DNA of 64,000 nt. Source: Xanthostigma xanthostigma (Eukaryota; Arthropoda; Insecta; Raphidioptera; Raphidiidae). The position numbers and the translations under genes were made by a program. The stretch lies in assembly GCA_963575645.1 (NCBI GenBank), contig OY754469.1, positions 46,520,753-46,584,752 of the forward strand. The letters run 5' to 3'. Below, piece after piece: positions 1,699 to 43,175 of the stretch (position 1 is the first letter of the stretch; each line of letters opens with the position of its first letter). Under the pieces are notes generated by a model, which was not told where the DNA came from, did not search any database, and worked only from the letters and a program-made list of their open reading frames with translations.

Positions 1699-1757
1699 AG
1701 ATGAAGGAAGGTTTTGGTTGAGGATCATAAAATAAGCTTTACTAGTGTTTCGTTAGT

Positions 1758-1796
1758 GGCCAACGTTTCGAAAAATTTATTTTCATCTTCAGGGCC
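1758..1796 (-). ncRNA. hammerhead-like ribozyme core (P2, left arm)
   Basis: This is the reverse-complement partner of the core at 1831-1869, with the same GGCC/GGCC stem I, stem II and GAAACGTT. In a full transcript of the foldback the two arms would pair with each other and compete with the ribozyme fold. Confidence 0.45.
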
Positions 1797-1830
1797 TCAA
1801 GCTGGTCTTACCACCACTTGCCCAGCTTGA

Positions 1831-1869
1831 GGCCCTGAAGATGAAAATAAATTTTTCGAAACGTTGGCC
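1831..1869 (+). ncRNA. hammerhead-like ribozyme core (P2, right arm)
   Basis: In order: GGCC (stem I, 1831-1834), CTGAAGA (1835-1841), one extra T, stem II GAAAA/TTTTC around a 5-base loop, GAAA (1858-1861), ACGT, and GGCC again (1866-1869) closing stem I. GTT at 1863-1865 fits the NUH cleavage triplet. The A-C-G-T step would form stem III only with no loop, so a single copy probably cannot fold as an active monomer. The base between CTGAAGA and stem II is a deviation from the usual consensus. An identical mirror copy lies on the minus strand at 1758-1796. Confidence 0.5.
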
Positions 1870-1930
1870 ACTAGCGAAACACTGGTAAAGCTTATTTTAT
1901 GATCCTCAACCAAAACCTTTCCTTCATCTT

Positions 1931-2734
1931 GAAATGGATAACGCTTAGTAGGCTAGTTTTAAGTATAGTGTTTTCAGTAATTCGATATGAGTTAAGCAAC
2001 TAAATAATACAATTTGATATTTTTAACTTATAAGGAACGGAATAAAACACAGGCTGTATGGCTATGAAAGGCAATTATAAATCATACAAACACCTCTTTG
2101 AATAGTATGCGTATTTATGAAGGGTCGATAATAACTACTGCTTAGTATACATATAATATATACATATACCGTGGATATAACTGTAATTTCTTCATTTATA
2201 TTTATATTCAAATTTTAAATTGAAATCCGTGTGCAGGATTTGCATTATTTGCATATAAATATTACACAATTTCGTTCATATACCGCTACCAGTTTTGCGG
2301 ACGGGTTAATTAATTACAATCTTCTAACTTTTAATGAATATTTGAATAGAATAATTGTTATTGTAACCAGTCGTTCCAACTGCATAAAAAACAGCTGCCT
2401 ATTTTCTCAGCTCAAATTATGTCAAATTATAATACCTATACTGCTCAAAAATTAAACCCGAAAAATATTCCTTGTTAATGTAACGAGACGCCACTGGAGG
2501 CGGCGGTAGTGTATTGTTGTCAGAGCCGCGTAGAATACAATACTATATAGACAACAATGCGCGTATTGTTACACTCATTGTCATCGTAGCCGCATAGAAA
2601 AATACCGAATATTGTTCCAGAACGCTGTGAATATGTTAACTACTCTAGTCGCCAAAAATAAAAATATTTACTTTCAGCACACTTCACTTCGTCTACAACC
2701 GCTAGACAATTTTTTTACACTAGTGCCATTCTAA
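1931..2734. other. AT-rich stretch, nothing recognised
   Basis: There is no supported gene. Around 2500-2580 the words TGTTGTC and GACAACA recur in inverted orientation near GCCGCGTAG and GCCGCATAG, which may be a decayed inverted repeat. Confidence 0.3.
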
Positions 2735-2836
2735 ATCTTCTTGGTTTCCGGGCTTGTATGCACACACTGCACGGCATACAAGCCCGGAAACCACGATTTG
2801 GATCAACACCGGCCGTGAAAGCCTACACACTTGGAT
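2735..2836. mobile_element. Penelope-like foldback, family P3, short copy
   Basis: GGTTTCCGGGCTTGTATGC and its reverse complement face each other across a short loop, followed by TTTGGATCAACACCGGCC and a tail to CACACTTGGATA. The same sequence ends the larger copy at 35461-35836. A decayed hammerhead arm (TCGTCTACAACCGCTAGAC, near 2688-2706) lies just upstream. Confidence 0.55.
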
Positions 2837-3437
2837 AGTGCCATTTTGGTCACTTTTTGTACTGTTATTTGACGTTTCTAAATGGACACTTTTCAGTTTT
2901 ATTCCCGTATAAAATGGTTCTCCTTACCTCTTACCCTCCATACTTCATACTGTACAGAAAAATATACGCCAGTAAAATTAAAATCATTATAAAATTTTAC
3001 ACGAAACTTGGTATGGTGTTTGAAGGCGATACAATTGTAGCAATAACAAAACCATTAAAAAGTTTTTCACATAAAATATTTATGTCAATCTATCGTGTAA
3101 TAATAGTTATGTATTACTAACCAGCAGCAACGGAAAAACTTATTTCCTCTCGTGTTTACAACTCGATAAAAAATTTAAATTCATACACTTCATAACATTG
3201 TCATGTCGGAAAAACTTAGTGCAAAAAAATATGAAATTTACCTTAGCTTTGTAGGTATGTAAGCACCTGCTAGCGGTGTCAGTCGTCACCTTTAATATGG
3301 CAACTTCCTGAACTTACGGAATATACACACACTGCCCTACCAAAATATTACACACATTTTTATTTTTACCGCGTGAGTGCTATGCAGCCGATTCGGGCGG
3401 TTTTGATTTCGAACCACGGCTAATTTTCCGTGCTTAG
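2837..3437. other. no gene recognised
   Basis: This is AT-rich DNA with only short frames lacking any family signature. I see no repeat shared with the rest of the window. Confidence 0.3.
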
Positions 3438-3832
3438 TCAATTTTGGCCGCGCTAATCTCCGAAACCCCTGAACCAAATTTAATTAAATTTTGTAATTGT
3501 GTCTTGCTTGGTCCAACTTACACTATAGGATAGTTTTTATTCAATATTTTGCACAAAGTTACGGTGTTTTGTAAAAAAAATCTGTTTAGTAACATGTAAC
3601 GACATCTCATAAAATTTGTCCAAAACTATTACCTAGTTCAGAAGCAAATCAAAAAAATTATTTTAGTACCATGTAGCGACGTCGGATAGAATTCGCTCAA
3701 AGCTATTAGTTCAGAAGCAAATCTGGTAGAATTTGATCAAAGCTATTAGTTTTGATGCCGGACCGCAAACGAAATACATTTTGCAGAATTATATCTATCG
3801 CACCCGGGTGAAACCGGGACGGACTGCCGCAG
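3438..3832 (+). mobile_element. Helitron-like element, copy 1, 5' end eroded
   Basis: It shares GGCCGCGCTAATCTCCGAAA with the copies at 37.1 and 45.5 kb, then contains two or three units of the 40-bp motif with AAAGCTATTAGTTCAGAAGC. It ends with the hairpin CACCCGGGTGAAACCGGG and a short tail to GCCGCAG. A GC hairpin about ten bases from the 3' end is the usual Helitron terminator. The 5' TC end seen in copy 3 is no longer visible. No Rep/helicase coding remains. Confidence 0.6.
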
Positions 3833-3892
3833 TCAATACATAAATTAGAATTTAAAAAAAAATGTGTGTGAATCAGCTCCGACGTACGACTG

Positions 3893-4102
3893 GTTTACTC
3901 TTTAGATACGCTGTGTAATTTATTCCGTCTCATTCTTTCGCACGTTAAATCCTACAGATATATATGTCTGTCTCTTTTGAAGCGGACGAGCGTAACGCCA
4001 CACTTGAAGCGGTGGAGCGTAATGCCTCACCAATTGATTTTACTACTCATAAAATTTCCGTACCGGGCCTTATAACTAAAAATAGTTTCTTAAGGAGTAA
4101 AC
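3893..4102 (+). mobile_element. TIR MITE, copy 1 (partner at 35190)
   Basis: It is bounded by GTTTACTC and GGAGTAAAC as short inverted ends and matches 35190-35373 in reverse orientation over its whole length (TTTCGCACGTTAAATCCTAC, TTTCCGTACCGGGCCTTATA). Copy 1 has an extra internal duplication of a GAGCGTAACGCC-like unit. The superfamily is not determined and there is no clear target duplication. Confidence 0.55.
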
Positions 4103-4476
4103 TAAAAAAAAAAAAAATAACGACGAGACCAAGGTGTGGAATTCACCGAGCTGTTTCCCTTTATCGGAATGTTTCTAGAGTTTTACCAGGGCAGTAGAAA
4201 TATTCGGTTATAGAGTACGTATGTAAGAGAGCATAGAAATCACACAGAGAATATTATGTACGTATTCCCGTGGAGATGCAGATGAATTATAGAATTCGTT
4301 TCGATTTGTGGCATAACGGTTGCCGCGGGTAGATGGTGACAAATACACCTATCTCTCATAGCAGACACAACCCGCCGACACTATATACAATACAAATACA
4401 GGTACGACTGTATGTGTAATGTATATATCTGCGGACAAATCGCAAAACCGCTAAGTTCGATTATAAGCAAATTTTG

Positions 4477-4815
4477 ACGTATAATACGCGCCATGGATCT
4501 AAAAGGTTCGGAAGTTAGTCACAAACAGCGTCGCAAAGGCACATTTTAGAGCCGTTGTGACTCCCATCATCTCCCAGCTACCTGCACGGAACGTGCGCTC
4601 GTCGGTGATTGGCCGTGATCGCTCGTTGCCTTTGTCACTTGTCGCTTTCCTGCTTTAAAGTACAGTCGAGTACGCTATTGTCAAGTTGTTATTGTTATTT
4701 TAGTTTAGTTGAGTTGCGAGTTTGTAGTTTTTCAACAGACTGTACAAGCGCAAGCCCGCATTCGCATCTAACTTCCGAGCCTTTTAGATTCGTGGCGCGT
4801 ATTATAAAAACGTCT
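4477..4815. mobile_element. TIR element with GC-richer interior
   Basis: Arms of about 40-45 bases are inverted: GACGTATAATACGCGCCA with AAAAGGTTCGGAAGTTAG on the left, and CTAACTTCCGAGCCTTTTAG with GGCGCGTATTATAAAAACGT on the right. The interior, around 4550-4660, is richer in G and C than its surroundings and resembles a promoter or 5' leader, but no TATA box or initiator is clear. No copy is seen elsewhere in the window. Confidence 0.5.
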
Positions 4816-4967
4816 ATTCGCTCGTTAACTACAGTGATAGTCGGTTGAACTTTTTGTGTTACACTAATGTCTGCGATTAACACAATTATTATGTCCTCGG
4901 TGAGTTATTTCCACGGTGGACACAATTATGTCCAAGGTGAACACTAATCTTCACGATGGGCACAGTT

Positions 4968-5710
4968 AGGGGGCGTTCACAAATTGCGTGAGGCAAATTT
5001 GACCCCGTCCCCCTTGGTGAGATGATGTGAGTTTTTGATCGACGATCCCCCATTCTCTAATCTCACGTGAGATTTTTCAAAATGCTTGATCGCATTCGAT
5101 TTATTTAAAAAAAAAACATAATTTTCTTAATTCTTTTTATTTTTTAAGACTATAGCACTATAAAGACTTCATAAAGAACGTAGTCTAGAATCATAGATAA
5201 ATATTATTGTATATGATTTAGCCATATTTTAGTGGAGAAACATTTTTTTACTTAATAATTTAACCCAGTTTTCTCGCAATTTTACAGTTTTTTGCGGAAA
5301 AAAAGATAACATAATGTAGCAAGTATTGTTACATTAACTTTCTCTCTCTTTTTTGTAATAATGATAATATTACAAAAGAGAGAGAGAGTAAATATAGCAA
5401 GTATTGTTACATTAACTCTCTCCGTCTCTTTTGTAATATTGTAAAAATTAGTTTTCCTTAGCTACGCACGAAAAATGAATTTTATCAATTTGAAAAAAAC
5501 AATTAATTAATCAGATCTTGAGAAAACAGTTTGTCACGATTTTTTTATAATTCAAGTTTAAGCGTTTTTTATTTTAAAGTAAGAACTTTTCTAAGTGCTT
5601 ACAATGATATTTGCCGAGACCCACCTCTCCCCCACGCGAGATTGGGTGAGGTCCGGCTCGACCACCTCTCCCCGCTTTCAGTTTGAAAATTTTAATGCGA
5701 CATAAACTAT
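4968..5710. mobile_element. possible decayed TIR element with internal palindromes
   Basis: It begins with GGGGGCGTTCACAAATTGCG and a run of CCCC-rich sequence. Around 5620-5690 there are related CACCTCTCCCCC blocks in the opposite sense, as expected for the two ends of a dispersed insect TIR element. The right end is too eroded to place. At 5320-5440, GCAAGTATTGTTACATTAAC occurs twice as a direct repeat around a palindrome of CTCTCTC and GAGAGAG arms. Confidence 0.35.
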
Positions 5711-6159
5711 TTTGCCTGCACGTCCCAAATATACACATACTTACCTATAGGTGTGTGTGTTTATATGATGATGTAGAAGAGGAAATCAAATGTCAAAGCA
5801 GTAAGAATCTCATCTATCAAGCTCAGCCGACATCACCTTAAAGCTTCCATGTGTATGTGTATAGGTTATTCGTACATACACTTGTACACGTCACACGTGT
5901 GACTGTATGTGTGCACCGATGTCTGAATTATGTTTATATTATATTCGTTTATATTCCAAGTTTATGCTCTAAACCAGCGCTTTATACACTAGTGATGTAA
6001 CGAATGTCAATTACTAGAATGCGAATATCTGTCGTCAATATTCGCGAATGCTTCAGGATTCAAATCTGGCGCCATTTGTTCAAGGCTAAAATTTGGCAGC
6101 TGATTGACTGCGCAAGTCGCACGCACGCATTCTAGATACTAGGTTGAATACTAGTCTAA

Positions 6160-6303
6160 AGGCCGCTGTCCACGAGGGTGGATTTGCCGCTAGATTTGAC
6201 CACTAGTTTTCTAGCGCAGGTTTTCTTGATTGCTTTTATGTGCTCACTGCTCGCTTCACACGAGACGTGTTTTCGAGTTTGTTTTGTGGACGGATCTGGT
6301 GCG
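6160..6303 (+). mobile_element. fragment of the GGCCGCTG TIR family
   Basis: It matches the ends of the two fuller copies at 27482-27905 and 28519-28904 (AGGCCGCTG, CACGAGG, CTAGTTTTCTAGCGC, TTGCTTTTATGTGCTC). The right half is missing. It sits inside the hAT MITE at 5990-6684. Confidence 0.55.
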
Positions 6304-6429
6304 CACATTCATCTTAGTTTATCGAGATGAATGTTGTGTCCAAATTTCATGTTACTGTTCAAAAGTTTTTGTCGGACGGACAAATTTTACACTTTGCAAC
6401 ATTTTTCATTGATGCTTCACTCCTATTGG

Positions 6430-6582
6430 TCGTAGCGTGATATTATATAGTCTATAGCCTTCCTCGATAAATGAGCTATCCAACAAAAAAAAAATTCAAT
6501 TCGAACCAATAGTTCCTGAGATAGCGCGTTCAACCAATCAAACAAACAAACTATTCAGCTTTATATATTAGTATAGATTATT
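6430..6582 (+). repeat. 3' tail of a dispersed insect retroelement
   Basis: The sequence runs from a CCAATAGTTCCTGAGATAG-like segment into AACAAACAAACTATTCAGC and TATATTAGTATAGAT. Tails of this form end many insect non-LTR elements and their SINEs; the exact clade cannot be told from the tail. Confidence 0.4.
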
Positions 6583-7951: not shown

Positions 7952-7959
7952 GTCATAAG

Positions 7960-8874: not shown

Positions 8875-9385
8875 CGCTTTAATTGTACAATCGATAATGT
8901 ACTAAAAACTAGAAAATAAATACGAGTCACCATTGGGGCTTTGATTAAAATAAAATAAAATCGTGGGGGGGCATTTAATAATAAACTTTCATTTCTATGA
9001 GATTGGAAATTATTTTTATCTTTCGACTGTCTTCTTCGACCATAATGTATAACTATAAACAAATCTTCGATTAACGTCTGATTAGAACTCTTCAATAAAT
9101 AAAATTATCGATCAATTTTTCAGACAATATATTAACAAAAAATATAATTAATACATTAACGTTTCGATCCGGATTTGAAGAAGATCCAAATCCGGATCGA
9201 AACGTCAATGTATTAATTATATTTTTTGTTAATATATTGTCTGAAAAATTAGTCGATAATTTTATTTATTGTATAACTATAAAATTACCCCCCATGAATT
9301 TATGTTACTTTAATCAAAGCCCCCAATGGCGACTCATATTTATTTTCTAGTTTTTAGAACATTATCGATTGCACAATAAAAGAGT
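8875..9385. mobile_element. nested foldback containing Penelope-like family P1
   Basis: Outer arms 8875-8950 and 9308-9385 are inverted (ATCGATAATGTACTAAAAAC against GTTTTTAGAACATTATCGAT). Inside, 9093-9271 is a second palindrome made of family P1 arms, with GATCCAAATCCGGATCGAAA at its centre. The P1 element also carries CTGATTAGAACTCTTCAATA on its left flank, found at the other P1 copies. No coding sequence is supported. Confidence 0.6.
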
Positions 9386-9394
9386 TTAACTTAA

Positions 9395-15590: not shown

Positions 15591-15712
15591 AAGTATTAAT
15601 TATAGATTATCGGATACTTGAACAGGTTAAATAAATAGATATTAGTTTTTCAAATGTTTCGTTGATAATTTTCAACTTCTTCAGGCAATCTACAAAATAA
15701 TTACAATATATA

Positions 15713-16210
15713 CAGGTGTCCCACGACATGACTGTCATAGCCTGGGACTGTGTTGCTGGGGTGATTTCAAGTAAAAAATGTCTAATGAACGTATACCCGG
15801 AACGCTATCCTAACTGAGCTAGAAGCATTTGAAATTTTAGATAAGTAGTAGTAGGAATTTCTTACTAATTTAAAAACCATTTAAAAAGAAATCGCTTTAT
15901 TGAATTAGTTGCTCAAAATGTCCACCCAGTTGTTGTATACATAGTCTAGCTCTTCTTAGAATTGAAGTGGCAGCTCTGCGAAGAGTCTCAGGATCAGCAC
16001 GGTGATTCACAGCCACCTGGTCTTTTTAATAATAACAAAACCAACAGCCGAACCTAATACCTGCATTAGTGGGCTTACTTATTTAAAATTTCAAATGCTT
16101 CTAGCTCAGTTAGGATAGCATTCCGGGTATATGTTCATTAGACATTTTTGACTTGAAATCACCCAGCAACACAGTCCCAGGCTATGACAGTCATGTCGTG
16201 GGACACCCTG
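15713..16210. mobile_element. Tc1-like element, internally deleted, with long TIRs
   Basis: Near-identical inverted ends of about 120-130 bases start CAGGTGTCCCACGACATGAC on the left and, as reverse complement, CAGGGTGTCCCACGACATG on the right. TA flanks each end, as expected for Tc1/mariner. The interior keeps the very end of a transposase on the minus strand (15897-16022). It sits inside the P4 foldback, so it is the younger of the two. Confidence 0.75.
15897..16022 (-). pseudogene. Tc1/mariner-type transposase C-terminus
   Basis: The minus strand translates without stops from 16022 to a stop at 15897-15899. It gives a tail that contains RRARLCIQQLGGHFEQLI, preceded by VNHRADPETLRRA. A closing Arg-rich helix and GGHFE-like ending is typical of insect Tc1-like DDE transposases. 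A stop lies two codons upstream of 16022, so only about 41 residues survive and none of the DDE catalytic positions are present. It is non-functional and belongs to the 15713-16210 element. Confidence 0.65.
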
Positions 16211-16382
16211 TATAACATGTGTTTTGTTGAAGTGTAATTTTTTGTTTTTTATTTGAAATGGGAAAATATTCATATAAAAATTGTATCAAACATTTATAGT
16301 AAATGTAGCAAATGTAAATAATGACATGAATGCTATCTATTTGTTTTATATGTTATATTATATATTGTAATTATTTTGTAGA

Positions 16383-16422
16383 TTGCCTGAAGAAGTTGAA
16401 AACTATGAACGAAACGTTGCAA
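16383..16422 (+). ncRNA. hammerhead-like ribozyme core (P4)
   Basis: Stem I TTGC (16383-16386) pairs with GCAA (16419-16422). Between them are CTGAAGA, one extra A, stem II GTT/AAC around a 10-base loop, GAAA, and ACGTT. Stem I differs in sequence from that of family P2 but pairs perfectly over four bases. In the left-arm partner, stem II is longer (GTTGA/TCAAC), but the cleavage-site segment is deleted. Confidence 0.5.
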
Positions 16423-16490
16423 CATTTGAAAAACTAATATCTATTTATTTAGCCTGTCCAAGTATCCGATAATCTATAATTAATAAATTA

Positions 16491-17871: not shown

Positions 17872-18147
17872 TCTTTGATTAACGTCTGATTAGAACTCTT
17901 CAATAAGTAAAATTATCGAAATAATGAAAAAATAATAATTATTATTTTTTCATTATTTTGATAATCATTAATAATTTTGAAAGATTTTATAAAAAGCTAA
18001 TTAGAATTTGAATATTAATTATTTTTTATATTTTTTAGAACAGTTCTGAAGAAGGTCCAAATCCGGATTGAAACGTTAATGTATTAATTATATATTTTTT
18101 TATTAATATATTGTATGAAAAATTGGTCGATAATTTTATTTATTGAA
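17872..18147 (+). mobile_element. Penelope-like element, family P1, asymmetric copy
   Basis: It has the family ends (TTTGATTAACGTCTGATTAG on the left, GGTCGATAATTTTATTTATT on the right) and one core: CTGAAGA, an extra A, stem GGTCC/GGATT, then GAAACGTT. The left arm that would mirror the core is missing and is replaced by a simple hairpin around 17922-17962. Confidence 0.6.
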
Positions 18148-18214
18148 AAATATCGTTAAAACCAGAATCACCTCAGTGAATTTGGCCAATTCATAAATCC
18201 ATCCTCTTAGTGGT

Positions 18215-19039: not shown

Positions 19040-19188
19040 TTTTAGCTCAATTCCGAAGAAAATACAAATCCAGACCGAAACGTCAACTAACTGAATTAAA
19101 ATTGTATAATTTTTGTTTATATATTGTCTGAAAAAGTGGTAGATAATTTTATTTGTTGAAGAGTACTCAGTCGCTAATCAAAGATTTG
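19040..19188 (+). mobile_element. Penelope-like family P1, decayed 3' half
   Basis: The core is degenerate: CCGAAGA replaces CTGAAGA, and stem II hardly pairs. The downstream tail with TATATTGTCTGAAAAAGTGG and GATAATTTTATTTGTTGAAG identifies it as family P1. Confidence 0.55.
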
Positions 19189-19691: not shown

Positions 19692-20052
19692 GTTTTTCAA
19701 TAAAATTATCGACCAATTTTTCAGACAAATACCTATATTAACAAAAAATATATAAAATTAATACATTGACGTTTTGGTCCGGATTTGGATTTTCTTCAGA
19801 ACTGATCTAAAAAATATAAAAATAATTAATAATTAGTTACTAATTCGTATTTGAAAAAATTCGCTTCAAGTTTTTAAATTGTTATGAAATATTAACAAAA
19901 TAAATACTTATTTGATAATAATTTAAAAACTTGGAAGCGAATTTTTTCAAATACGAATTAGAAACTAATTATTAATTATTTTTATATTTTGTCTGAAAAA
20001 TTGGTCGATAATTTTATTTATTGAAGAGTTCTAATCAGACGTTAATCAAAAA
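19692..20052. mobile_element. Penelope-like foldback, family P1
   Basis: Arms 19692-19870 and 19925-20052 are inverted copies, for example TTCGTATTTGAAAAAATTCG against CGAATTTTTTCAAATACGAA. The left arm has the core on the minus strand (TTCTGAAGA ... AAAACGTC). The right arm lacks it, so the foldback is asymmetric. Confidence 0.6.
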
Positions 20053-20704
20053 TGTGAATATTTTGTTTAACTAAACAGGAGGAACACATTCATTAATTAA
20101 ATTTTAACATATTAATCAACGATCTCTTCTTACAATTAATCCTAAATACCAAAATTACTTTAAAATGATCACCCCAATAAAGTCGGCCATTAAACGTACG
20201 TAAGTAACATGATTCTGCATAGGTATATGTGTGGATGGAACGCCATGTACCTAACTCAGACAACAGCAGGAAATTGCTGAAGCTGGTGTAATTGCATATA
20301 CATACATAGAAAGGCATGTGTAATGCGCAGACAGGTAATTTGGTTGCTATGACTTGGATACCTCATATTCACTGACAATACAAAATTATGTATTGGAAAT
20401 AAAATATTCCAATCGCTATTTATGAGCCAAGCTTAGTTCTGAATTTAATTCACTCGCTAATTAAACAGGCGCGATGAATATCAAAGTAGAATAAATGATA
20501 ATGCAGCCGCCGCAATAGTTTGAATCCCGACAGTGACACTATTTAAATATTTATAACCGTTCTGATCCCATAATGAAACTGCCTAACGATATTAAAGCAA
20601 CCAAAAACACAAATAAATTTACAAAAGCGTGTAAAGCTATATTATATAATAAATGCTATTATAGCAATAGTGAATTTTTAAATTATTAATTTTGATTTAT
20701 GTGT
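20053..20704. other. no gene recognised
   Basis: Unique AT-rich sequence between the P1 foldback and the hAT element. It holds only short chance frames. Confidence 0.3.
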
Positions 20705-22071: not shown

Positions 22072-22136
22072 AGCTTTACCAAAGTATCGCGTGTGGCCAA
22101 CGTTTCGAAAATTATATTTTCATCCTCAGGGCCTAT
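22072..22136 (-). mobile_element. Penelope-like family P2 fragment with intact core
   Basis: On the minus strand: GGCC, CTGAGGA, T, stem GAAAA/TTTTC, GAAACGTT, GGCC. This keeps the stem I and stem II pairing of the copy at 1831-1869. The loop sequence differs (TATAA). No mirror arm is present. Confidence 0.55.
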
Positions 22137-22518: not shown

Positions 22519-23148
22519 CAGGGGTCGGCAACCCGCGGCCCGCGAGCCTATACCTTGCGGCCCGTGACTGTTTTAAAGTCTTATATACATGCATAAATAA
22601 ATAATTAAATTAATTTTCACAAATCCTTTTTCTTATGATATTGAGGATGTACTTAGTCATTTACAAATGAACGTGATTGATCTCCAATCTAATGATACTC
22701 TCAAGAAATCAAAGATCTTGTTAAATTTTGTGTCAGTTTGCCATCTAATTTTGACGAATTGAAAAGGTTTGCTCTGCAATTAATTACAATTTTTGGTAGT
22801 ACTTACTTATGCGAACAAACCTTTTCGATTCTCAATTACAGAAAAAATAAATATGCTTCTCGTCTCACAGATGAGCACTTGAGAGCTATTCTACGGATTG
22901 CAACTATAAACCTGTAAGCTAACACACAAAAAATAGCCACTCAAATACAATCTCAAACGTCACACTAATTTTTGTAAAAGAACAGTTTCATTTTGAAGTT
23001 CTCAGTTAAATTTTTAATAAAATTCAAATGAAATGTTTTCGAATTTTTAATTTCCCAAATACCTATTATTAAAATTATGAACAAGTGCGGCCTTTATTTC
23101 AATTTGCCACTATGTGGCCCTTGCTTGCCAAAAGGTTGCCGACCGCTG
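22519..23148 (+). mobile_element. hAT element with partial transposase
   Basis: The exact 8-mer CTTTAAGC flanks both ends (22511-22518 and 23149-23156). The ends are CAGGGGTCGGCAACCC and (inverted) CAGCGGTCGGCAACC. CGCGGCCCGCG and GTGGCCC words next to the ends are typical of this hAT group. The internal part carries only the last third of a transposase (22622-22917), so it is an internally deleted copy. A more decayed relative is at 51411-51738. Confidence 0.85.
22622..22917 (+). pseudogene. hAT transposase C-terminal dimerisation domain
   Basis: Translation from 22622 gives NPFSYDIEDVLSHLQMNVID, then DLQSNDTLK. A one-base loss near 22700-22715 shifts the frame, which continues as DLVKFCVSLPSNFDELKRF, FGSTYLCEQTFSILNYRK and SRLTDEHLRAILRIATINL, with a stop at 22915-22917. 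The FGSTYLCEQTFS and RLTDEHL motifs are characteristic of the hATC dimerisation domain in Charlie/ZBED5-like transposases, including the final short tail. The zinc-finger BED domain and the DDE/RNase H-like core are missing, and the frameshift makes it non-functional. Confidence 0.8.
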
Positions 23149-23572
23149 CTTTAAGCCATGCACAAAGAAACTGAAAATTTTCTACGGAAGCCTTTGTACG
23201 ATAGTTCTATCCTCACATACCAACTTTCTTTAAGAAACAGTTAAATTGAGGTTAGAAATTAGTTTAGACTTTTAGAGTAAAATTATCATCCTTATAGAAT
23301 TGTATTGTGAAATTGGAAGGCACAGGATCAAATAAAGCAAAACTTATGTTCAAATATCACATTTAATACAATAACTTTCCGATACTCTTTGTAACATTTT
23401 CGAAATATTCAATGCAAGACAAAGTATACTGATCAAATATTGATAGCATTGAATATAATCTGAAGACGAAATGAAGTACAAAAACGTTAGTACATTAAAT
23501 GCATCTTTAAACATCTTTATTTACTGATCAGGTGGCGCGGCACCCTTCAAATTACACATTAAAAAATACTAG
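23149..23572. other. no gene recognised
   Basis: Contains the right target duplication of the hAT element and then unassigned AT-rich sequence. Confidence 0.3.
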
Positions 23573-24064: not shown

Positions 24065-24276
24065 TCTCTTGAAGGCACGCATTAATATATATATTTTTTT
24101 ACTTTTGCTCAGTCATCAATAAACTGCCTCAAAAAAAAGGCTTGTAAATCAAACTTGGGCCTCTAAAAGATTACTCTGTTTAATTTTTTTTTGTCAAATC
24201 AGTCACCATCAGTATAATATTTCAAAATTTAATTACAATTTGAAATTAGATTTATACAGCAGTTTTCGTTAGAGTA

Positions 24277-25301
24277 TAGTGCATTTCGGTTATAGCGATG
24301 ATAAAGGGATCACATAATTCCGTCGCTATATCCGGAAGTCGCTATATAGAAAGAAAAGTATACTTTAAATTCAAGGGACTTAAGTAGTGCGTCGCTATAA
24401 CCGAAAAGTCGTTACAACTGTAGTCGTTAAAAATGAAATCGACTGTACAGTGGATTTCGGTTATAGTGACGATGAAGGGACTACATAAACTCCGTTGCTA
24501 TATCAGGAAGTCGCTATATAGAAAGAAAAGTATACTTTAAATTCAAAGAAGTTAAGTAGTACGGCGCTATAACCGAAAAGTCGTTACAACCGTAGTCGTT
24601 AAAAATGAAATCCACTGTACAGTGGATTTCGGTTATAGTGACGATGAAGGAATCACATAACTCCGTCGCTATATCAGAAAGTCGCTATATAGAAAGAAAA
24701 GTATACTTTAAATTCAAAGAACTTAAGTAGTACGTCGCTATAACCGAAAAGTCGTTACAACCGTAGTCGTTAAAAATGAAATCGACTGTACAGTGGATTT
24801 CGGTTATAGTGACGATGAAAGGACCACATAACTCCGTTGCTATATCAGGAAGTCGCTATATAGAAAGAAAAGTATACTTTAAATTCAAAGAACTTAAGTA
24901 GTACGTCGCTATAACCGAAAAGTCGTTACAACCGTAGTCGTTAAAAATGAAATCCACTGTACAGTGGATTTCGGTTATAGTGACGATGAAGGAATCACAT
25001 AACTCCGTCGCTATATCAGAAAGTCGCTATATAGAAAGAAAAGTATACTTTAAATTCAAAGAACTTAAGTAGTACGTCGCTATAACCGAAAAGTCGTTAC
25101 AACCGTAGTCGTTAAAAATGAAATCCACTGTACAGTGGATTTCGGTTATAGTGACGATGAAGGGACAACATAATTCCGTCGCTATATCCGGAAGTTGCTA
25201 TATAGAAAGAAAAGCATACTTTAAATTCAAGGGACTTAAGTAGTACGTCGCTTTAACCAAAAAGTCGTTACAGTCAAGGTAATTATAAATGAATTCTACT
25301 G
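24277..25301 (+). repeat. six-unit tandem array of a 169-170 bp pogo-type MITE
   Basis: Units start at 24277, 24448, 24620, 24791, 24962 and 25133, each separated from the next by a single shared TA (period 171-172). A unit opens with CAGTGGATTTCGGTTATAG and closes with AAATCCACTG or AAATCGACTG, so the TIR is about 11 bases plus an imperfect inner repeat of CGGTTATAGCGACG. Units 2-3 and 4-5 are most alike as pairs, indicating a dimer-based expansion. The TA junctions and the TIR suggest a Tc1/mariner (pogo) origin. No coding sequence. Confidence 0.85.
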
Positions 25302-27478: not shown

Positions 27479-27481
27479 TAA

Positions 27482-27905
27482 AGGCTCTGCATACGAGGCT
27501 GGAAACACTGCTTAGACTTCTGCTGGCTGGACAGGAGGCTGGTAATGTCACTGCGGGCTCGCCTGCTAGCTCACAAGACAGATTTTAAAACTAGAACAGA
27601 GACTATTTTTCTTGCTTTGTACTTTGTTTGCTCCGAGCAAGAACCAATCAGGAAACAGTATCTTGTCACGCGGGCGACACGAACAAACGCCCACAAACTA
27701 AAATGGCGTCATTCTGCTCAGAGTCAGACAACAGACACGTTTTGCTCTGTGTTTATATTTGAACTGCCACTGCGCGCGCACTAGACCTATCCACAAAGCA
27801 AGCTTGAAAATACGTCTCGCGTGAAGCGAGCACAGAAAACCAGCGCTAGAAAACTAGATTTATCAAGGAATCTAGCGGAAAATCCAGCCTCGTGTGCAGC
27901 GGCCT
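27482..27905 (-). mobile_element. TIR element, GGCCGCTG family, copy 1
   Basis: The inverted ends are AGGCTCTGCATACGAGGCT and AGCCTCGTGTGCAGCGGCCT, with TAA on both sides (27479-27481, 27906-27908). A 3-bp TAA duplication would suit PIF/Harbinger. Interior words such as CAAAACGTGTCT and ATTTGAACTGCCAC are shared in reverse with copy 2. The frames across it, up to 79 codons, are chance frames of the element. Confidence 0.65.
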
Positions 27906-28518
27906 TAAAACCCTTTACTTATTTAGTTTCTTTTGGACAATACTGTGTTATGCAGGCAACTTAACCTTACAACACATTTATTTGTATACAGCAGTTTTAC
28001 ACATAAATATTTCTTGATATGATATATTTTTTCTGGTACCGTTTTGTATTTATTTCTCCATAATTTCACAAAGTTTGCCTGCGTGGAGACTGAATTATGT
28101 GAAATTTTTATTTATATAGGTACCTACTCGAAAAAAAAGCACTACTAATGTAAGTAATTGCGTCTGGAAAATATAGTTGTTAACTTGTTAGTTCTACACT
28201 ATAATTTTGATCATTAAAATTTAATCATTTTATTAATTAAAACCTTCCGGATTGACAGTTATGAATTTGTTAAAACATCAAAACACATAAAAACCAGCTT
28301 TTTTACAGGACTTCAGTCTACAATTTCGTTTTCTTGCGAATTTTTTTGCATGTTTCTTTATGACATCTAATCTAGATGAAAAAGGGTTTGACAGTAAGAC
28401 CGATTTATCCATTATCAACTGGTAGTTTTTCTGGTCGGATACAATCGAGTTAAGATTTTGTTTTTTTTTTTAACATAGCTACAGTATTTTATAATTTCTC
28501 TTCAATGATACACACCTA

Positions 28519-28904
28519 AGGCCGCTGCACACGAGGCTACTAGTTTTCTAGCGCTGGTTTTCTCAATTGCTTTTATGTGCTCGCTTCACACGAGACATTT
28601 TTACAAGCTTGTTTTGTGGATAGATCTGCTGCGCGCGCAGTGGCAGTTCAAATATAAACACAGAGCAAAACGTGTCTATTGTCCGAGCAAAATGACACCA
28701 TGTTGGCTTGTGGGCGTTTGTTCATGTCGCTCTATGTGACAAGATACTGCTTCTTGGTCGGAGAGGACCTATCAAGAAAAATAGCTCCTGTTCTAATTTT
28801 AAATTTCTACCTTGTGAGCTATAGCAGGCGAGCCGGTAGTGACGCCATTTCAAGCCGGCCAGCAGAAGTCCCAGCAGTGTTTCCAGCCTCGTGTGCAGTG
28901 GCCT
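28519..28904 (+). mobile_element. TIR element, GGCCGCTG family, copy 2
   Basis: The opposite-orientation copy of 27482-27905, about 600 bases away, with ends GGCCGCTGCACACGAGGCT and AGCCTCGTGTGCAGTGGCCT. The flanking bases (CTA or TAA against TTA) do not give a clean duplication. Two inverted copies this close could pair. Confidence 0.65.
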
Positions 28905-28907
28905 TTA

Positions 28908-35460: not shown

Positions 35461-35836
35461 GGTTTCCGGGCTTGTATGCCGTGGTTCAAGGTATTTCTAC
35501 CTGACGTTTCGTCTACAACTGCGGTAGACATTATCAAAAGCGATGCGGTAGCGGGCGAAGTGTCCTTCTAGGCTGCTCACAGGTAAGCGTACCTGTGAGC
35601 GATCAATCACAGAAGAGCATACTACGACCGAGCAGAGAACACGAGCACGCTGACCATAAAAGAAGGAAGTACCACACTTGTCGACACACTTATCTGTGAG
35701 CAGCCTAGAAGGACACTTCGCCCGCTGCCACATCGCCTTTGATAATGTCTACCGCAGTTGTAGACGACGGCATACAAGCCCGGAAACCAAGATGATTTGG
35801 ATCAACACCGGCCGTGAAAGCCTACACACTTGGATA
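35461..35836. mobile_element. Penelope-like foldback, family P3
   Basis: The outer words GGTTTCCGGGCTTGTATGCC and GGCATACAAGCCCGGAAACC are inverted. So are TAGACATTATCAAAAGCGAT and TCGCCTTTGATAATGTCTAC, and GAAGTGTCCTTCTAGGCTGC with its partner. The right arm has lost the segment containing GAAACGTC that the left arm keeps. The tail TTTGGATCAACACCGGCC is shared with 2735-2836. Confidence 0.65.
35503..35543 (-). ncRNA. hammerhead-like ribozyme core (P3)
   Basis: On the minus strand: TTGATAA in place of CTGANGA, an extra T, a six-pair stem II GTCTAC/GTAGAC, then GAAACGTC. GTC is the preferred cleavage triplet. The flank AGG after GTC pairs with CCT in the right-arm version of the sequence before TTGATAA. 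Changes in the first box (TTGATAA) make activity unlikely. Confidence 0.4.
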
Positions 35837-35842
35837 TTATTA

Positions 35843-36880: not shown

Positions 36881-36885
36881 GCTTA

Positions 36886-37087: not shown

Positions 37088-37798
37088 TCCTTATAATATA
37101 AAATTCTCGAGTCACAATTTTGGCCGCGCTAATCTCCGAATTCACTGAACCGATTTTAACGAAACTTTTTAAATGTGTATTGCTTGATCCAACTTACACT
37201 ATTATGGTGTTTTGTCAAAAAATACTGTTTTAGTACCAAGTAGCGACATCTGATAGAATTTGCTGAAAGCTATTAGTTTAAAAGCAAGCAAAAAAATGTA
37301 GCAACGTCTGATAGATTTGCTCAAAGCTATTAGTTCAGAAGCAAATCTGATAGAATCCGCTTAAAGCTATTAGTTCAGAAGTAAATCTGATAGAATTTGC
37401 TTAAAGCTATTAGTTCAGAAGAAAATCTCGTAGAATTCGCTCAAAGCTATTAGTTTAGAAGCAAATCTGGTAGAATTCGCTCAAAGCTATTAGTTCAGAA
37501 GTAAATCTGATAGAATTTGCTTAAAGCTATTAGTTCAGAAGAAAATCTCGTAGAATTCGCTCAAAGCTATTAGTTTAGAAGCAAATCTGGTAGAATTCGC
37601 TCAAAGCTACTAGTTCAGAAGCAAATCTGGCAGAGTTTGCTCAAAGCTATTAGTTCAGAAGCATATCTGGTAGAATATACTCAAAGCTATTAGTTCAGAC
37701 ATTGCTGCGCTGTAGTCATTTTCATTATATTTTGCAGAATTTTCCGATAACACAAAATATATTTATCGTATTCGGGTGAATTCGGAACGGACCGCCAG
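37088..37798 (+). mobile_element. Helitron-like element, copy 2, expanded by a minisatellite
   Basis: The 5' side reads TC then TTATAATATAAAATTCTCGA and the shared GGCCGCGCTAATCTCCGAA. The 3' side has a weakened hairpin, TTCGGGTGAATTCGGAA, and ends CCGCCAGT. About 400 bases of its interior are a 40-bp tandem array (see 37300-37700). It is almost twice as long as the 379-bp copy at 45519, with most of the difference in the array. Confidence 0.65.
37300..37700 (+). repeat. 40-bp minisatellite inside the Helitron, about 10 units
   Basis: Each unit has TAGAATTCGCTCAAAGCTAT, TAGTTCAGAAGCAAATCTGG or close variants. A 120-bp, three-unit block with CTCG, CTGG and CTGA endings is repeated once in order, so the array grew partly by three-unit duplication. 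The other Helitron copies have only two or three units. Confidence 0.85.
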
Positions 37799-38422: not shown

Positions 38423-38776
38423 AAAAACTATTGCAGATATCTGAAATCACAAAAAAGATTCTGAAAGAGTTGGAAATTTCCTACAAAAATGTCTCATCTC
38501 CCGGAGCTCTACCGCCAATGTTTCTAATTTTAATTTAGAGGTAAAAATAGGACAACAATTTTTTTTATTTTTTATATGATTTTCAATATTTTTGTGTCTT
38601 TTAGCTTGTCGTATAAAAAATAGAAAAACAAATTTTGTAGCTCTATTTTCACCTATAAATTAAAATTTTAAAAATATTAGTGGTAAAGATCCGGGAGATG
38701 GGACTTTTTCGTAGGAACTTTTCTGCTCTTTCTGCAGAACCTTTTTTGTAATTTCAGATATCTGCAATAGTTTTTT
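38423..38776. mobile_element. foldback element, arms about 140-150 bp
   Basis: CTATTGCAGATATCTGAAAT and ATTTCAGATATCTGCAATAG are inverted, and so are ATCTCCCGGAGCTCTACC and GGTAAAGATCCGGGAGATGG, around an AT-rich middle with TTTTTATATGATTTTC. No target duplication is found. The superfamily is unknown. Confidence 0.6.
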
Positions 38777-38799
38777 CTTTTAATCGAATGACACCATGA

Positions 38800-40390
38800 T
38801 CATAATTTTCGGTGAAGGAGGACTGAATTTACCAAAAAGAAACATGTGAACTAGACTAAGGGACAAATTTTTATATTAGATTACAGTTGTGATTAAGCCA
38901 AGTTTTTAAAAAATATTTTATGATTCGGCGTTGAAAATTGTATTAATGGTATTCAAGTCATTAAATTGTTGATTAGCTATTATAAATAGACTTATGAATA
39001 TTGAAAAAATATAGCCTTTGTTATATTTAAATGTACGATGAACTTCTTTTGCAACTACTGTTATCAGTTATCATTTGTTTAATTCATAAATTATATTAAT
39101 TTATGTTAATAATATATATCGACAAAGAGAACGTATTTATAAATATCGCGGCGTAAACAAATATATTATGTACAAATAATATATATGCTATAAATCTATA
39201 ACCTTACGACCTCAAAATAATGATAAGAAATATCGCAATAACAAGGACTTAGTCATAAAACTAAAATTTTTCAATTTGTATAGTCATCGATAATTCCGTA
39301 AATATGTACATTAATTATTGTCTGTACTTAAATGTTGAAATCAGTTTAATAAAAAAAAACCATTAACCATACGCATAAATTAAAAATATAAATTAATTAG
39401 ACAATATAATAAAATTGAATGGAATTTTGTTTACATTTTAAAAATATATAACGAGGATTGCACGTGTGTTCATAATTTCAATTAAACTCTCTTTGTGTAT
39501 TGTTGACAATATTTATCTCAAAACCATTCAGCCTAAGTAAAAATTCCATGGAATGGCCAGTTACAAATGCTTGCGATATTTTATGTTCTTAAAAGTGGGG
39601 AAAAAAATTGTCAGTCGAAAATAAAAGTCAGCAATATAACTTTTATTGGTCAAAAATCAGAGAAAAATCTAATAGCAAAAGGCACAGTAAATAAAATCAA
39701 CTTAAGTTTATGTAGTTCATGAAATTGTGTAAGGGACAAGTCGTATATCACAGAACTAGTTCTTGGTTTTAGCTAGAGAATAGCTTTACTACCTTTCACT
39801 GGTGGCGCTGGGATCAATACTGGTCATACCGTCCCACCGTACCATAGACTAGTTAAAGTATATGAGAAAGTCAAGGAATTGACAGCTTATTTTCAAAAAT
39901 TATCATTCAGTTAGTGAAGATATGAACGTGGATGTTTGTAATGGATTTCAGAAATAAACAAGTGCATGCGGATTAGGGCGTCAAGGTCAATGCCCCACCC
40001 GGCGCGATATACAAAATAAATTATAGAGCGGTATATTTTCATACGATCGACCAATTGGTATTTGTATTTACGAATCTGAATATATAATACAGAAATGTAA
40101 TTCAGAACACGTTTAAACTCAATCAGCACCCCGATATTTTGGGGATCCGAAGGCCTACCTATAAAAATTATTAAAAATCGGCAATGAAATATAAAATTAC
40201 ATTCACAAATATTAATTTTTTAAGGTTAAATTTTATAGTTTGTTTTTATGCAAAAAAATTTTGCCACACTTTTTAAACATTTTGAACACTATTTTCCAAG
40301 AAACACGATGGTAAAAAAATAAAAAGATTACTGAAAAAAAAGGACGACTACACTATCCCAACTACAAAATAGGAAGCTAAGAAATATTTA
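38800..40390. other. unique AT-rich DNA
   Basis: There is no supported feature. The minus-strand frame at 39911-40129 is short and without signature. Confidence 0.35.
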
Positions 40391-40396
40391 TTAAGT

Positions 40397-40745
40397 AAAT
40401 AAAATTATCGACCAATTCTTTTCAGACTATATATTAACAAAAAAATATAATAAAATTATAAATCTATATTTCACTAGATGACGTTTCGATTCGGATTTGG
40501 ATCCTCTTCTTATATTTCGATAATTCAAACTCCATTCTATTAGAAAATATAAGTAGATATATCAATTAATTTTTATATTTTTTTAGATTATTTCTGAAGA
40601 AGGTCCAAATCCAGATCGAAACGTCATCTAGTGAAATATTGATTTATAATTTTATTATATTTTTTTGTCAATATATAGTCTGAAAAAAATTGGTCGATAA
40701 TTTTATTTATTTGAAGAGTTGTATTCAGACGTTAATCAAAGATTT
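40397..40745. mobile_element. Penelope-like foldback, family P1, both arms with core
   Basis: Inverted arms contain TTCACTAGATGACGTTTCGA on the left and TCGAAACGTCATCTAGTGAA on the right. The plus-strand core at 40594-40625 reads CTGAAGA, A, a stem GGTC/GATC with one wobble, GAAACGTC. The tail ATAATTTTATTTATTTGAAG and TCAGACGTTAATCAAAGATT identify family P1. Confidence 0.65.
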
Positions 40746-40927
40746 TAGAAATATTTTTTTAAATCAACGAAAAAAATCATATATGAAGATATGGATGATT
40801 TGTTGCACAAAATTAATCGGTAATTTTATCAAATAAATTATATTTTAATGTTTATCGGTCTTAAACTGAGCTGTCTGGATAAAAATAAATTTTAGTAAAC
40901 ACAAGAAATTGATGAATATTTGAAATT

Positions 40928-41016
40928 AAGTATAAAGTAGTGTTGATCCAATAGAATGTCACAATGAAGGAAAGTTTGTTTGAGAATCCTCAACCAAACC
41001 TTCCTTCATCATTAGA
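40928..41016 (+). mobile_element. Penelope-like family P2 remnant
   Basis: AGTATAAAGTAGTGTTGATC leads into CAATGAAGGAAAGTTTG and an inverted CAAACCTTCCTTCAT, as at 1664-1720 and 1905-1930. The body with the ribozyme-like core has been lost. Confidence 0.5.
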
Positions 41017-41588
41017 AATTATAAACGATAGATATAGCCGCGGTTATTAGCGAATTAAAAAATGTATGTTTTCATTTTATTAAAAAAATACTTTGAAACC
41101 CTACTCAATATTGTTAGGAAGTTGCGTGTTGGCCTTGATCTCTGTGAGCAATAGAACGATATCTACACAGCTTGATTTAAGAGCTTCTACAAGTGCATGT
41201 ATGTTTTATGTTTGCGTGCGGAACTCAAACCTTAGTAGCGTACGTGTCGAATGAAATGTCCAAGGTACTTGGGTCGTACGTAGAGACTGGCCACGAGATA
41301 TCAACCTGAAGGTTGAGATTGGCCAGCTCTACAACAAAAACTAAAAAGCGACACATAGATTCCGTCTCTCTCAATGATCAACTCTGGATCAAAGAAACAT
41401 AGAGTGGGAATTTTGCAATTTGTAATTGAGAGAGTGATAAAGAACGACTAAGAAATGAAAAATGTTTGATTTTTTTTAGCATTTTAGAGAAAATAGCGTC
41501 AATATTTGCATCATTTTATTAAATAGTTTCCAATCAGATGAAGTTTTCGCTTTCGACGATTCAGCCAAATAGTAATCTTAGCACGGAT

Positions 41589-42090
41589 TAGAGATGAGGA
41601 GATAAACGGGTCTTTTTAGTGATCTGCATCTTTGCATCTGGATCCCGTATGTGAGCCGGCTCCCTGAACCGGTTCAAAAAGAGCCGAGTTCTGAATATGT
41701 TATTCGAGTCAACTGAGCCACTGAGTTAGTTGAGTCAAGTCAATCATATCACCTAATATTATGCCAGTGACTGACTCACATATTATAAAGCGGGGTTTTA
41801 CAGGTTGCTACTTGCTATGTTACAGAAAGCATATTACAGTATGCAATACAATACCTTAAATAGTTGTGACTTAAGTAAAACATTGTACCGCCTGTGCGTA
41901 TAGTGTGTACCATAGCCAGACATATTATGATGCATGAGTCATTTGAGCTGACAGTGCTTCTTTGTAAGTGTTTCACTGAGTTATGCGGATCCCTTGAGCC
42001 GTCGGCTCATAAAAAAGTGAGCCGGCTCTCACGGATCTTCTGTCGGAGCCGGCTCTTTGAACCGGTTCAGATCTGAGTTACCCAAGCCTA
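41589..42090. mobile_element. hAT-type MITE, family C
   Basis: The exact 8-mer GCACGGAT flanks both sides (41581-41588 and 42091-42098). The ends are TAGAGATGAGG and ACCCAAGCCTA (reverse complement TAGGCTTGGGT), which fit a hAT TAG start though the TIR is short and imperfect. GAGCCGGCTC and AACCGGTTC words recur near both ends. The 60-codon frame inside is not a real gene. Confidence 0.75.
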
Positions 42091-42989
42091 GCACGGATGG
42101 ATATTTCATTTATCTGCACTTACATTTTCTTGGAGATCAAAAGAAATGAATTTTAATGGTAATTCAGTGCTAAAAATACTTTTGAAAATGTTCACGTCAA
42201 AAAATTGTATTAGAAACCAAACACGTAAGTCTACTCAATAAATGGACAATATTATTATGGTGTCATCCCATAGATCCGGAGATAAAATGGGACACATCGT
42301 ATTACGTACGCAGGCCGTGTTATACGAACGGTTTTGAACGGTTTTCACAAGGCCATGGTAATTCGGTTTTACACTATACATACATATAACTGTGCACCAC
42401 TCGGAATTTACGCACAACTGAAAGTTGAGGTTATGTCAACCTTATTTGGGATGAATATGTCTACCACTAGAAAATAATTGTTTTACAACAAATGACTCGT
42501 ATGATTTGAAATTTTCAATCATAAATATAATAGTACTACGTTATTATGTACAGTATGTAAACAGTACATAGGACGTTTTAATATTAGATTACAATGAAAG
42601 GATCACAATGCGCGCCATGATAGCAAATTACTGTAACAACCATAAATAAATCAATACTAATAATAGTCATGTAGGAAGGCCACTAAAACGACGAACTCAA
42701 TTTCAAATAATAAGAAAATTAGAAGAACTTTTCAGTGGTTCCAATATTGAATTTTGGCCAAGATACAAAAAAACTGATGAAACGCGGTTTTTTTAACTAT
42801 TTTTTAACAAGTTCCAGTCATCACACTAAGGCGCAACTTTGACAGATTGTGAATAATACTCATATAAATGTTCCCTCAAAGCACCCTTTTGAGATTTTGT
42901 GGAAATGTTTAGGATCAAATCATCTTCATTTTACTAGCCTGCATGCTTTATTTTGACCCATTTATTTTATCTCAATGCTAAATGTACCT

Positions 42990-43175
42990 TACAGCCTTAC
43001 ATAGTGTATTTTTTTACGATATGGAAATACAATTTTCAATTATTAACTGTTTTGAAGACAACGTCTTCAGTGGCCAAACGGTCCAAAAACAACGCAATTA
43101 CTGGTACGAAATTTGCATTTGTTAGCTAACGTTTTGAAGGATATACCTTCATCATCAGAGCACTCAAAAAAGAAA
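42990..43175 (-). mobile_element. Penelope-like remnant, family P5, two cores in the same orientation
   Basis: On the minus strand one core reads GCT, CTGATGA, T, stem GAAGG/CCTTC, AAAACGTT, AGC: stem I and II pair but GAAA is AAAA. About 85 bases further along the same strand is a second, weaker copy: CTGAAGA, C, GTTG, TCTTC, AAAACAGTT. Direct repeats of this kind are what Penelope-like terminal repeats look like. Confidence 0.45.
43125..43162 (-). ncRNA. hammerhead-like ribozyme core (P5)
   Basis: Minus strand: stem I GCT/AGC, CTGATGA, extra T, stem II GAAGG/CCTTC around TATAT, then AAAACGTT. G12 of the catalytic box is changed to A, which would be expected to abolish cleavage. Confidence 0.4.

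Follow-up and report, generated by a model that had tools for sequence, protein, structure and literature searches.

Introduction

Hammerhead motifs are already known from Penelope-like elements (PLEs). Their descriptions in PLE pseudo-long terminal repeats (pseudo-LTRs) give, in the passages on architecture, a type I order with minimal helices, a helix III that is missing or palindromic, and a place in the pseudo-LTR beside the start of the open reading frame (ORF) (Cervera and de la Pena 2014; Lunse, Weinberg and Breaker 2017). Parts of a study of the Poseidon element PAc of Anolis report a hammerhead near the ORF start and a purified protein that cuts and extends both DNA strands, with two reverse transcriptase (RT) starts flanking an optional tail (PMC11167929). 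In Penelope elements of Adineta vaga, according to passages of PMC3846280, inverted pseudo-LTRs stand mostly head to head with palindromes at their junctions, the target-site duplications (TSDs) are short (8-10 bp in the quoted cases), and an optional 31-bp tail occurs at one inverted pseudo-LTR. How PLEs make inverted copies, and what role the hammerhead has, are treated as open questions in parts of PMC11167929 and PMC7761336. The window analysed here, a 64-kb stretch of the Xanthostigma xanthostigma genome (positions 46520753-46584752 on a contig labelled C6 in our analysis; about 33% GC), carries a repeated hammerhead-like core, in many cases in foldback elements. We consider it very probable that these sites are Penelope-type hammerhead motifs with the type I order, a helix III consisting of ACGU and an extra base, and that the foldbacks arise at insertion.

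The traits listed above for PLE pseudo-LTR hammerheads, for PAc and for the Adineta vaga elements appear to be shared by the elements of this genome. A possible difference from the published PLE motifs is an extra base, present in every family examined here, and one of the families labelled P1 to P5, namely P5, has U3-A8 in place of C3-G8. PAc is described in part of its report as showing no start-site difference between the strands in vitro, whereas here one start of each kind was found in 30 of 31 paired insertions; its ORF begins inside the motif, whereas in the RT-bearing copy L050 the first in-frame ATG lies 124 nt past the core start (PMC11167929). Unlike the Adineta vaga elements, as far as passages of PMC3846280 describe them, the window copies are short and non-coding, belong to abundant families and have TSDs of mostly 11-15 bp. 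The genome searched is an assembly of 623 Mb in 28 contigs.

Hammerhead-Like Motifs in the Window

The first-pass annotation of the window listed seven sites with one common order of parts, and a pattern search of the window found this order at all seven. On the motif strand, the 5' side of stem I is followed by CTGANGA, or a sequence close to it, then by a single additional base (A or T) and by stem II, which starts with G and ends with C; then come GAAA (AAAA at 43125), CGT, one T or C, and the 3' side of stem I. We take this to correspond to the hammerhead numbering C3U4G5A6N7G8A9, extra base, 10.1-11.1, G12A13A14A15.1, C G, U16.1, H17, 1.1. The refined sites are 1758-1796 (-), 1831-1869 (+), 16383-16422 (+), 22095-22133 (-), 35499-35541 (-), 40590-40628 (+) and 43124-43162 (-), and a further P4 core, beyond those annotated, lies at 15648-15688 (-). 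The exact core stands at five of the seven, the exceptions being 35537 (TTGATAA, with C3 and G8 changed) and 43125 (GAAA to AAAA); among eight fetched P3 copies, the window's own included, GAAA is kept in six, CTGANGA in six and both in four. The core CUGANGA...GAAA with the cleavage base H is present in the window and in the genome pattern matches, P5 departing from it at positions 3 and 8.

These occurrences exceed chance. An exact core followed by the extra base and by four or more stem II pairs was found at five places in the window versus none in 60 Markov-1 resampled windows, while with one core mismatch there was one place versus six in the 60 resampled windows, and with two mismatches six versus 46. 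The pattern CTGANGANGN{8,16}CGAAACG matched five times in the window versus none in 100 dinucleotide shuffles. Over the whole genome, the pattern with the extra base has 16,832 matches (8,399 + 8,433 on the two strands) versus 11 (5 + 6) when the pattern is reversed; if the extra base is left out of the pattern, the corresponding figures are 165 (79 + 86) and 27 (13 + 14).

The hammerhead-like character of the core was borne out by a covariance model built without window sequence, which recovers most of the sites. This model, R1, has 37 positions and derives from six motifs near GIY-YIG coding sequence (L033, L039, L040, L042, L043, and L054), of which L033 is a relative of P4 and L054 has its stem I misaligned. 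R1 gave 11 matches in the window at E <=10; the top nine are eight annotated sites and one partner arm (best E 2.4e-7), and they are followed by a non-site at 23456 (E 0.54) and the P5 site at 35499 (E 0.66). The weaker copies annotated at 9174, 18050, 19055, 19780 and 50612 all proved to belong to the P1 family together with 40594, although those at 19055, 19780 and 50612 are not recovered by R1 in the window at E <=10.

Link to Penelope-Like Elements

The suggested link to Penelope is upheld by coding copies in this genome, where the same motif follows RT/GIY-YIG frames. In L054 and L043, RT and then GIY-YIG lie in one long frame (RVT_1 5.5e-12 and 3.6e-11; GIY-YIG 1.1e-5 and 1.0e-5, respectively), and the core stands 251 nt (L054) and 389 nt (L043) beyond the frame end. 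In L033, GIY-YIG is followed 0.4 kb on by a core matching P4 (76% over 138 aligned bases at the element end). In the tandem pair L049/L050, the core lies 124 nt upstream of the first ATG in the RT frame of the copy that follows; the idea that the extra base forms part of the AUG start codon found no support in this tandem and was rejected. The layout of L049/L050, L043 and L054 is that of the PLE pseudo-LTR, as described in parts of PMC11167929 and PMC3846280. The motifs of L033, L043, L054 and their relatives lie in the pseudo-LTR of an RT/GIY-YIG element, and the P4 motif does so by homology. On the reading preferred here, the motifs have two settings: the pseudo-LTR upstream of the PLE ORF start, and short elements of like architecture that are not autonomous.

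The copies in the window belong to the non-autonomous kind. The window holds no ORF of 150 aa, and tblastn with three PLE protein fragments found nothing in it or beside 30 P2 loci at E 1e-3. The 12-bp tail word TTGGATCAACAC is common to P2 and P5, whose arms are unrelated, and occurs at 1677-1688 (-), 2798-2809 (+), 35797-35808 (+) and 40940-40951 (-). It was absent, with one mismatch allowed, from the 30 fetched GIY-YIG loci, and a helper for P2 and P5 was not found there. Perhaps this shared word marks where a single reverse transcriptase, serving both families, begins synthesis.

Covariation of the Stems

The claim of covarying stems holds: pairing is kept across unrelated families, including clusters that were not chosen for stems past the first pair. 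In stem II, nine families, each with its own sequence, have 36 of 36 cells paired, and AT, TA, GC and CG all occur at three of the four positions. Re-dealing the 3' strands 20,000 times gave a mean of 19.9 and a maximum of 35 paired cells, none reaching 36, and slid registers gave 12-18 of 36. In stem I, 27 of 36 cells are paired (reached by 3 of 20,000 permutations) with the P5 row mis-indexed; correcting this row by hand (P5 4/4) raises the count to 30 of 36. A MAFFT alignment of all 12 motifs misplaced the cores and was discarded, and covariation was counted at anchored positions instead.

Several family motifs had originally been found by requiring stems, so two tests were performed without that requirement. 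In one, 30 of the 37 GIY-YIG matches in the genome were fetched and the sequence downstream of them was examined: CTGANGA..GAAA is present in 24 of the 30 loci with no stem demanded, and six loci have no core. In 22 of these 24, four to six stem II pairs start one base past A9, with no pairs in the canonical register; the 22 loci represent 21 distinct sites (L042 and L044 share one) and about five element families. The other two core-bearing loci, L034 and L036, have no such stem II, and L036 is presumably a host gene. In the second test, the first 100 genome places with the extra base gave 45 distinct cores, grouped by edit distance into 10 clusters. The search pattern fixes the first pair, and at positions 2-4 of stem II 28 of 30 cells are paired (50,000 permutations: mean 14.1, maximum 26, none reaching the observed count). 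An earlier clustering was dropped, as it had merged families (22 of 28 cells, reached by 6 of 20,000 permutations).

Helix III is reduced and self-complementary, namely ACGT in the P families, ACTAGT in L043 and ATGTACAT in L054, as judged by eye. Inspection by eye also shows that P1 and L054 share a stem I offset from the core by a 5-nt bulge, TATTT/TATTG. Single motifs reach weak energy z-scores, from -0.9 to -2.2, and no argument here is based on those scores. The two-armed P2 copy (window 1690-1940) folds as a single hairpin of -193 kcal/mol versus -53 for shuffles. This one predicted fold suggests that two-armed copies are most likely silent relics whose arms lock both motifs in a long hairpin. 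The motifs themselves, judging from their sequence, are probably self-cutting RNA.

The Extra Base and the P5 Core

The extra base stands between A9 and stem II in all element families examined, and stem II directly follows A9 in none of the 22 stem-bearing PLE loci (21 sites). Among the 165 genome matches without the extra base, the 100 that were listed yielded 75 distinct sequences, of which 22 pair best with it, 14 without it and 39 have fewer than four pairs; several of the 14 resemble, by eye, P1 or P2 copies short of one base. An extra core nucleotide is said to have been described in a viroid hammerhead by De la Pena and Flores in 2001, reportedly between A9 and stem II; there the extra base concerns one viroid, whereas here it is found in all retroelement families examined. 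Part of PMC11014351 states that the viroid hammerhead with an extra core nucleotide cleaves weakly, and that deletion of this base raised cleavage at the cost of infectivity.

All ten fetched P5 copies, the window's included, have an identical core. A P5 pattern that admits either pyrimidine at position 3 and either purine at position 8 has 1,238 matches in the genome, and the first 100 of them comprise 99 TTGANAA and one TTGATGA. The change from C3-G8 to U3-A8 could be a compensated core pair, or it could be two transitions in a motif that is no longer needed. PLE hammerheads are already known; what merits further work here is the extra base, the altered core of P5 and the rule, described below, of one tail per insertion.

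Structure and Origin of the Foldback Insertions

Exact TSDs of 10-14 bp were found at the element ends in seven of the 13 window zones examined; in the six others (19.0 kb, 22.1 kb, 41.0 kb, P4, the 35-kb P5 copy, and P3) a TSD is lacking, short or misplaced. The P2 set comprises 30 loci, equal to 29 distinct insertions because L013 and L014 are two arms of one, and 19 of these 29 have, by eye, exact 11-15 bp TSDs at their ends. One P2 end halts at CCTTCATCTT, while the other runs about 35 nt further through TTGGATCAACAC. By hand count, each of the 19 two-armed P2 insertions is tailed at one end and untailed at the other (tail at the left in 14, at the right in 5), and in the remaining 10 no inverted outer end was found in the stretch searched, where L006 has an inverted inner piece. 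An automatic count over 31 paired P1, P2 and P5 insertions gave one tail in 30, none in one and two in none (one tail in 8/9 for P1, 13/13 for P2 and 9/9 for P5, the arms being unrelated among families). This count omits pairs with poorly matching ends or lying less than 60 bases from the locus end, and its P2 rows overlap the hand count; the P1 figure is biased, as the query used for fetching held the tail, while the P2 and P5 queries did not.

The 19 two-armed P2 insertions have 19 different inner-end pairs by hand count, despite an identity of 99-100% to the query over 109 bases in every one of them. Inserts with a single arm occur at L015 and L022; they measure about 310-345 nt and are flanked by TSDs. 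Among the first 100 genome places listed, neighbours within 600 bp are head-to-head in 18 cases, direct in one and tail-to-tail in none. The earlier notion of five foldback families is misleading: in P2 the inversion seems to arise afresh with every insertion, and one-armed copies exist. In the window, the P3 copy at 43125 and the P2 relative at 22072 are single arms without a foldback, and inverted P3 pairs exist elsewhere. The TSD, the inverted pseudo-LTR and the tail at one end represent the insertion mode of PLEs.

The task of the motif in autonomous elements would be to cut RNA made of tandem element copies between GAAACGU-H and stem I, 5' of the ORF. The cutting would probably be performed by a pair of motifs joined via ACGU/ACGU, perhaps only in the presence of protein, as part of the PAc report describes for that element (PMC11167929). 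For the foldbacks, we infer the mechanism and order of events from the two-armed products seen in the genome. The RT/endonuclease would nick both strands about 10-15 bp apart, and reverse transcription would begin at each nick, with one start at the end of the tail of about 35-45 nt and the other at the tail's near edge. The two complementary DNAs (cDNAs), one per strand and start site, would finally join head to head at their inner ends. We read a two-armed insertion as two joined cDNAs because PAc cuts and extends both strands from two starts flanking the tail.

One can also suggest, tentatively and with considerable doubt that it holds, a more specific scheme. Each two-armed insertion would be the work of one ribonucleoprotein that uses its two RT starts once each, one per strand, as a built-in rather than a random outcome; P2 and P5, with unrelated arms and the shared TTGGATCAACAC, would be driven in trans by one Penelope RT; the motifs would form a core class of their own, in which the extra base is obligatory; and a natural U3-A8 would stand in for C3-G8 in P5.

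Exact copies of the motif number at least 16,832 in this genome, which also contains young two-armed insertions whose TSDs are clean, so both the one-tail rule and the extra base are countable in it. Since Rfam misses the motif at this scale, annotation of such genomes understates ribozymes.

Weighing of the Evidence and Alternative Explanations

Several observations weigh against the Penelope-type hammerhead reading. The Rfam check proposed in the first-pass annotation came out negative: cmscan of the window was empty for hammerheads both at the gathering score and at E <=10, no Rfam hammerhead model reaching E 10, and its 30 matches at E <=10 are mostly microRNA-type hairpins. Most likely, this is due to the shrinkage of helix III to the palindrome ACGT. 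The extra base itself departs from the canonical hammerhead core, and the P5 site is not significant with R1 (14 bits, E 0.66), C3 and G8 being absent from it. Stem I of P1 pairs at only two of the four core-adjacent positions unless the 5-nt bulge is allowed, and no full hammerhead appears in the folds of lowest energy for P1, P3 and P5. Four of the five fetched L033-type loci (L034, L035, L037, and L038, relatives of L033) have no stem-bearing exact core, and no autonomous partner was found for P1, P2, P3 and P5. Among the first 100 of the 1,238 P5 places, counted by hand, neighbours are head-to-head in six cases, tail-to-tail in one and direct in two, and three of the six head-to-head pairs have near-equal spacing (106, 106, and 109 bases between motif starts), which would fit the copying of one foldback. 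Finally, part of the PAc report states that hammerhead mutants had no effect on insertion in vitro and that both starts served both strands (PMC11167929).

A whole-genome search with RF00163 gave two matches, neither above the cut-off (best 33.6 versus 34 bits, 73 candidates scored), and the same search gives sub-cut-off matches in 11 of 14 control genomes. The two matches were rejected as instances of the present motif because they represent a different, canonical one. They are L001 and L002, two places on contig C1 whose positions 1501-1546 hold a type I hammerhead of canonical build that lacks the extra base (CTGATGAGTCC..GGACGAAACC), with a long stem I by eye and 33.6 bits with Rfam Hammerhead_1, just below the cut-off.

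The long inverted repeats and short loops would also suit foldback DNA transposons of the kind of miniature inverted-repeat transposable elements, in which the shared core would be part of the terminal repeat with no RNA structure. We give this explanation almost no credence: the TSD length is not fixed (10-15 bp), the ends are asymmetric with one of them tailed, single-arm insertions with TSDs occur, the P2 inner junctions vary, the motif also belongs to RT/GIY-YIG elements, and stem II covaries, for which there is no reason in DNA ends. Metazoan retrozymes, which are tandem units producing circular RNA with canonical type I hammerheads, resemble the present elements in being short, AT-rich and non-coding, in the type I order and in TSDs longer than 4 bp, as given in part of PMC7229834. 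Direct neighbours are rare, though (one of 19 pairs, and two of nine for P5, among the first 100 places each), helix III is reduced, and the register without the extra base is scarce (165 versus 16,832), which makes this origin very unlikely.

Two further explanations concern the function of the motif and the moment of inversion. If the motif were a hairpin through which Penelope RNA is packaged or bound by protein, and its likeness to a hammerhead were superficial, this would agree with the insertion of PAc hammerhead mutants in vitro, stated in part of PMC11167929, and with the amplification of P5 despite its changed C3 and G8. However, families that differ in their stems have the core letters CTGA-GA and GAAA in common, even if the search patterns required these letters, and passages of PMC11167929 report that PAc cleaves with protein and mention earlier self-cleavage of PLE motifs; we regard such a hairpin as unlikely. 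It is somewhat less improbable, yet still not what we expect, that the inversion is inherited in some families, where a master RNA with the foldback would be copied whole. The P1 copies at 40.4 and 50.5 kb are alike over their whole length, including the loop (77.6%), and the near-equal spacing in three of the six P5 pairs among the first 100 places points the same way, whereas the differing inner-end pairs of all 19 two-armed P2 insertions, near-identical as these are to the query, and the single-arm inserts L015 and L022 with TSDs speak against it. The P5 spacing and the shared P1 loop leave room for some copying of ready-made foldbacks beside the formation of foldbacks at insertion.

Insertions in the Window

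The P2 insertion at 1663-1930 (+) consists of head-to-head inverted pseudo-LTR arms (1708-1805 and 1822-1919, 98% identical) within a 12-bp TSD GAAATGGATAAC (1651-1662 and 1931-1942); the tail is inverted at the left end, with its word at 1677-1688 (-), and the right end is untailed. Its hammerhead-like cores at 1758-1796 (-) in the left arm and 1831-1869 (+) in the right arm each score 39.7 bits with R1 (E 2.4e-7), and the right one reads GGCC, CTGAAGA, extra T, GAAAA..TTTTC, GAAACGT, T and GGCC. The single-arm P2-related core at 22095-22133 (-) scores 37.5 bits (E 9e-7) and is 79-81% identical to P2. A short P2-type foldback at 40931-41020 has the outer ends and tail only, without the hammerhead.

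The P4 insertion at 15594-16485 (+) has arms at 15594-15712 and 16359-16485, and a 10-bp TSD was not found at its ends. Its core at 16383-16422 (+) gives 34.8 bits with R1 (E 4.2e-6), a model that includes the P4 relative L033; the core of the other arm, 15648-15688 (-), is a pattern match with a deletion after GAAAC (26.1 bits, E 6e-4). Between the arms lies another inverted-repeat element (GGTGTCCCACGACATGACTGTC..) with its parts at 15709-15847 and 16076-16214.

Several insertions belong to P1. That at 40390-40746 (+) is untailed at the left and tailed at the right, with arms 40393-40509 and 40596-40712, the TSD AGAAATATTT at 40380-40389 and 40747-40756, and a core at 40590-40628 (+) whose stem II is GGTC/GATC (R1 20.2 bits, E 0.018). 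The insertion at 17872-18149 (+) has a sense core at 18042-18081 and the TSD ATATCGTTAAAA (20.9 bits, E 0.013), and in that at 9060-9269 (+), with the 14-bp TSD TGTATAACTATAAA, the arms are fused near the core at 9173-9209 (18.9 bits, E 0.039). Two more are missed by R1: 19696-20056 (-), with a 12-bp TSD, one tail and a decayed core near 19766-19803, and 50456-50759 (+), with the TSD GATGAAAATTAT and a partly deleted core near 50609.

The P5 core at 35499-35541 (-) has TTGATAA (U3/A8), an extra T, stem II GTCTAC/GTAGAC, and GAAACGTC followed by AGG. A short P5 insertion without the hammerhead, at 2731-2835 (+), has the tail word TTGGATCAACAC and the TSD TAGTGCCATT. The single-arm P3 core at 43124-43162 (-) has G12 changed to A in the window copy and scores 29.2 bits with R1 (E 1e-4).

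Other Repeats in the Window

A perfect palindrome with 57-nt arms and a 14-nt loop occupies 63839-63966. It contains GGACTAATAATTGTCCGAAAGCG, which resembles the stem II and GAAA part of a further Penelope motif, but a core cannot be recognised in front of it. A large inverted repeat at 27480-28905 consists of several arm pieces (86-90%) around a 0.7-kb centre and has no R1 match inside. At 22696-22917 there is a 73-aa ORF fragment, which resembles the C-terminal part of a hAT transposase. Two tandem arrays are also present, with a 171-bp unit repeated 5.8 times at 24274-25272 and a 40-bp unit repeated 9.9 times at 37307-37699.

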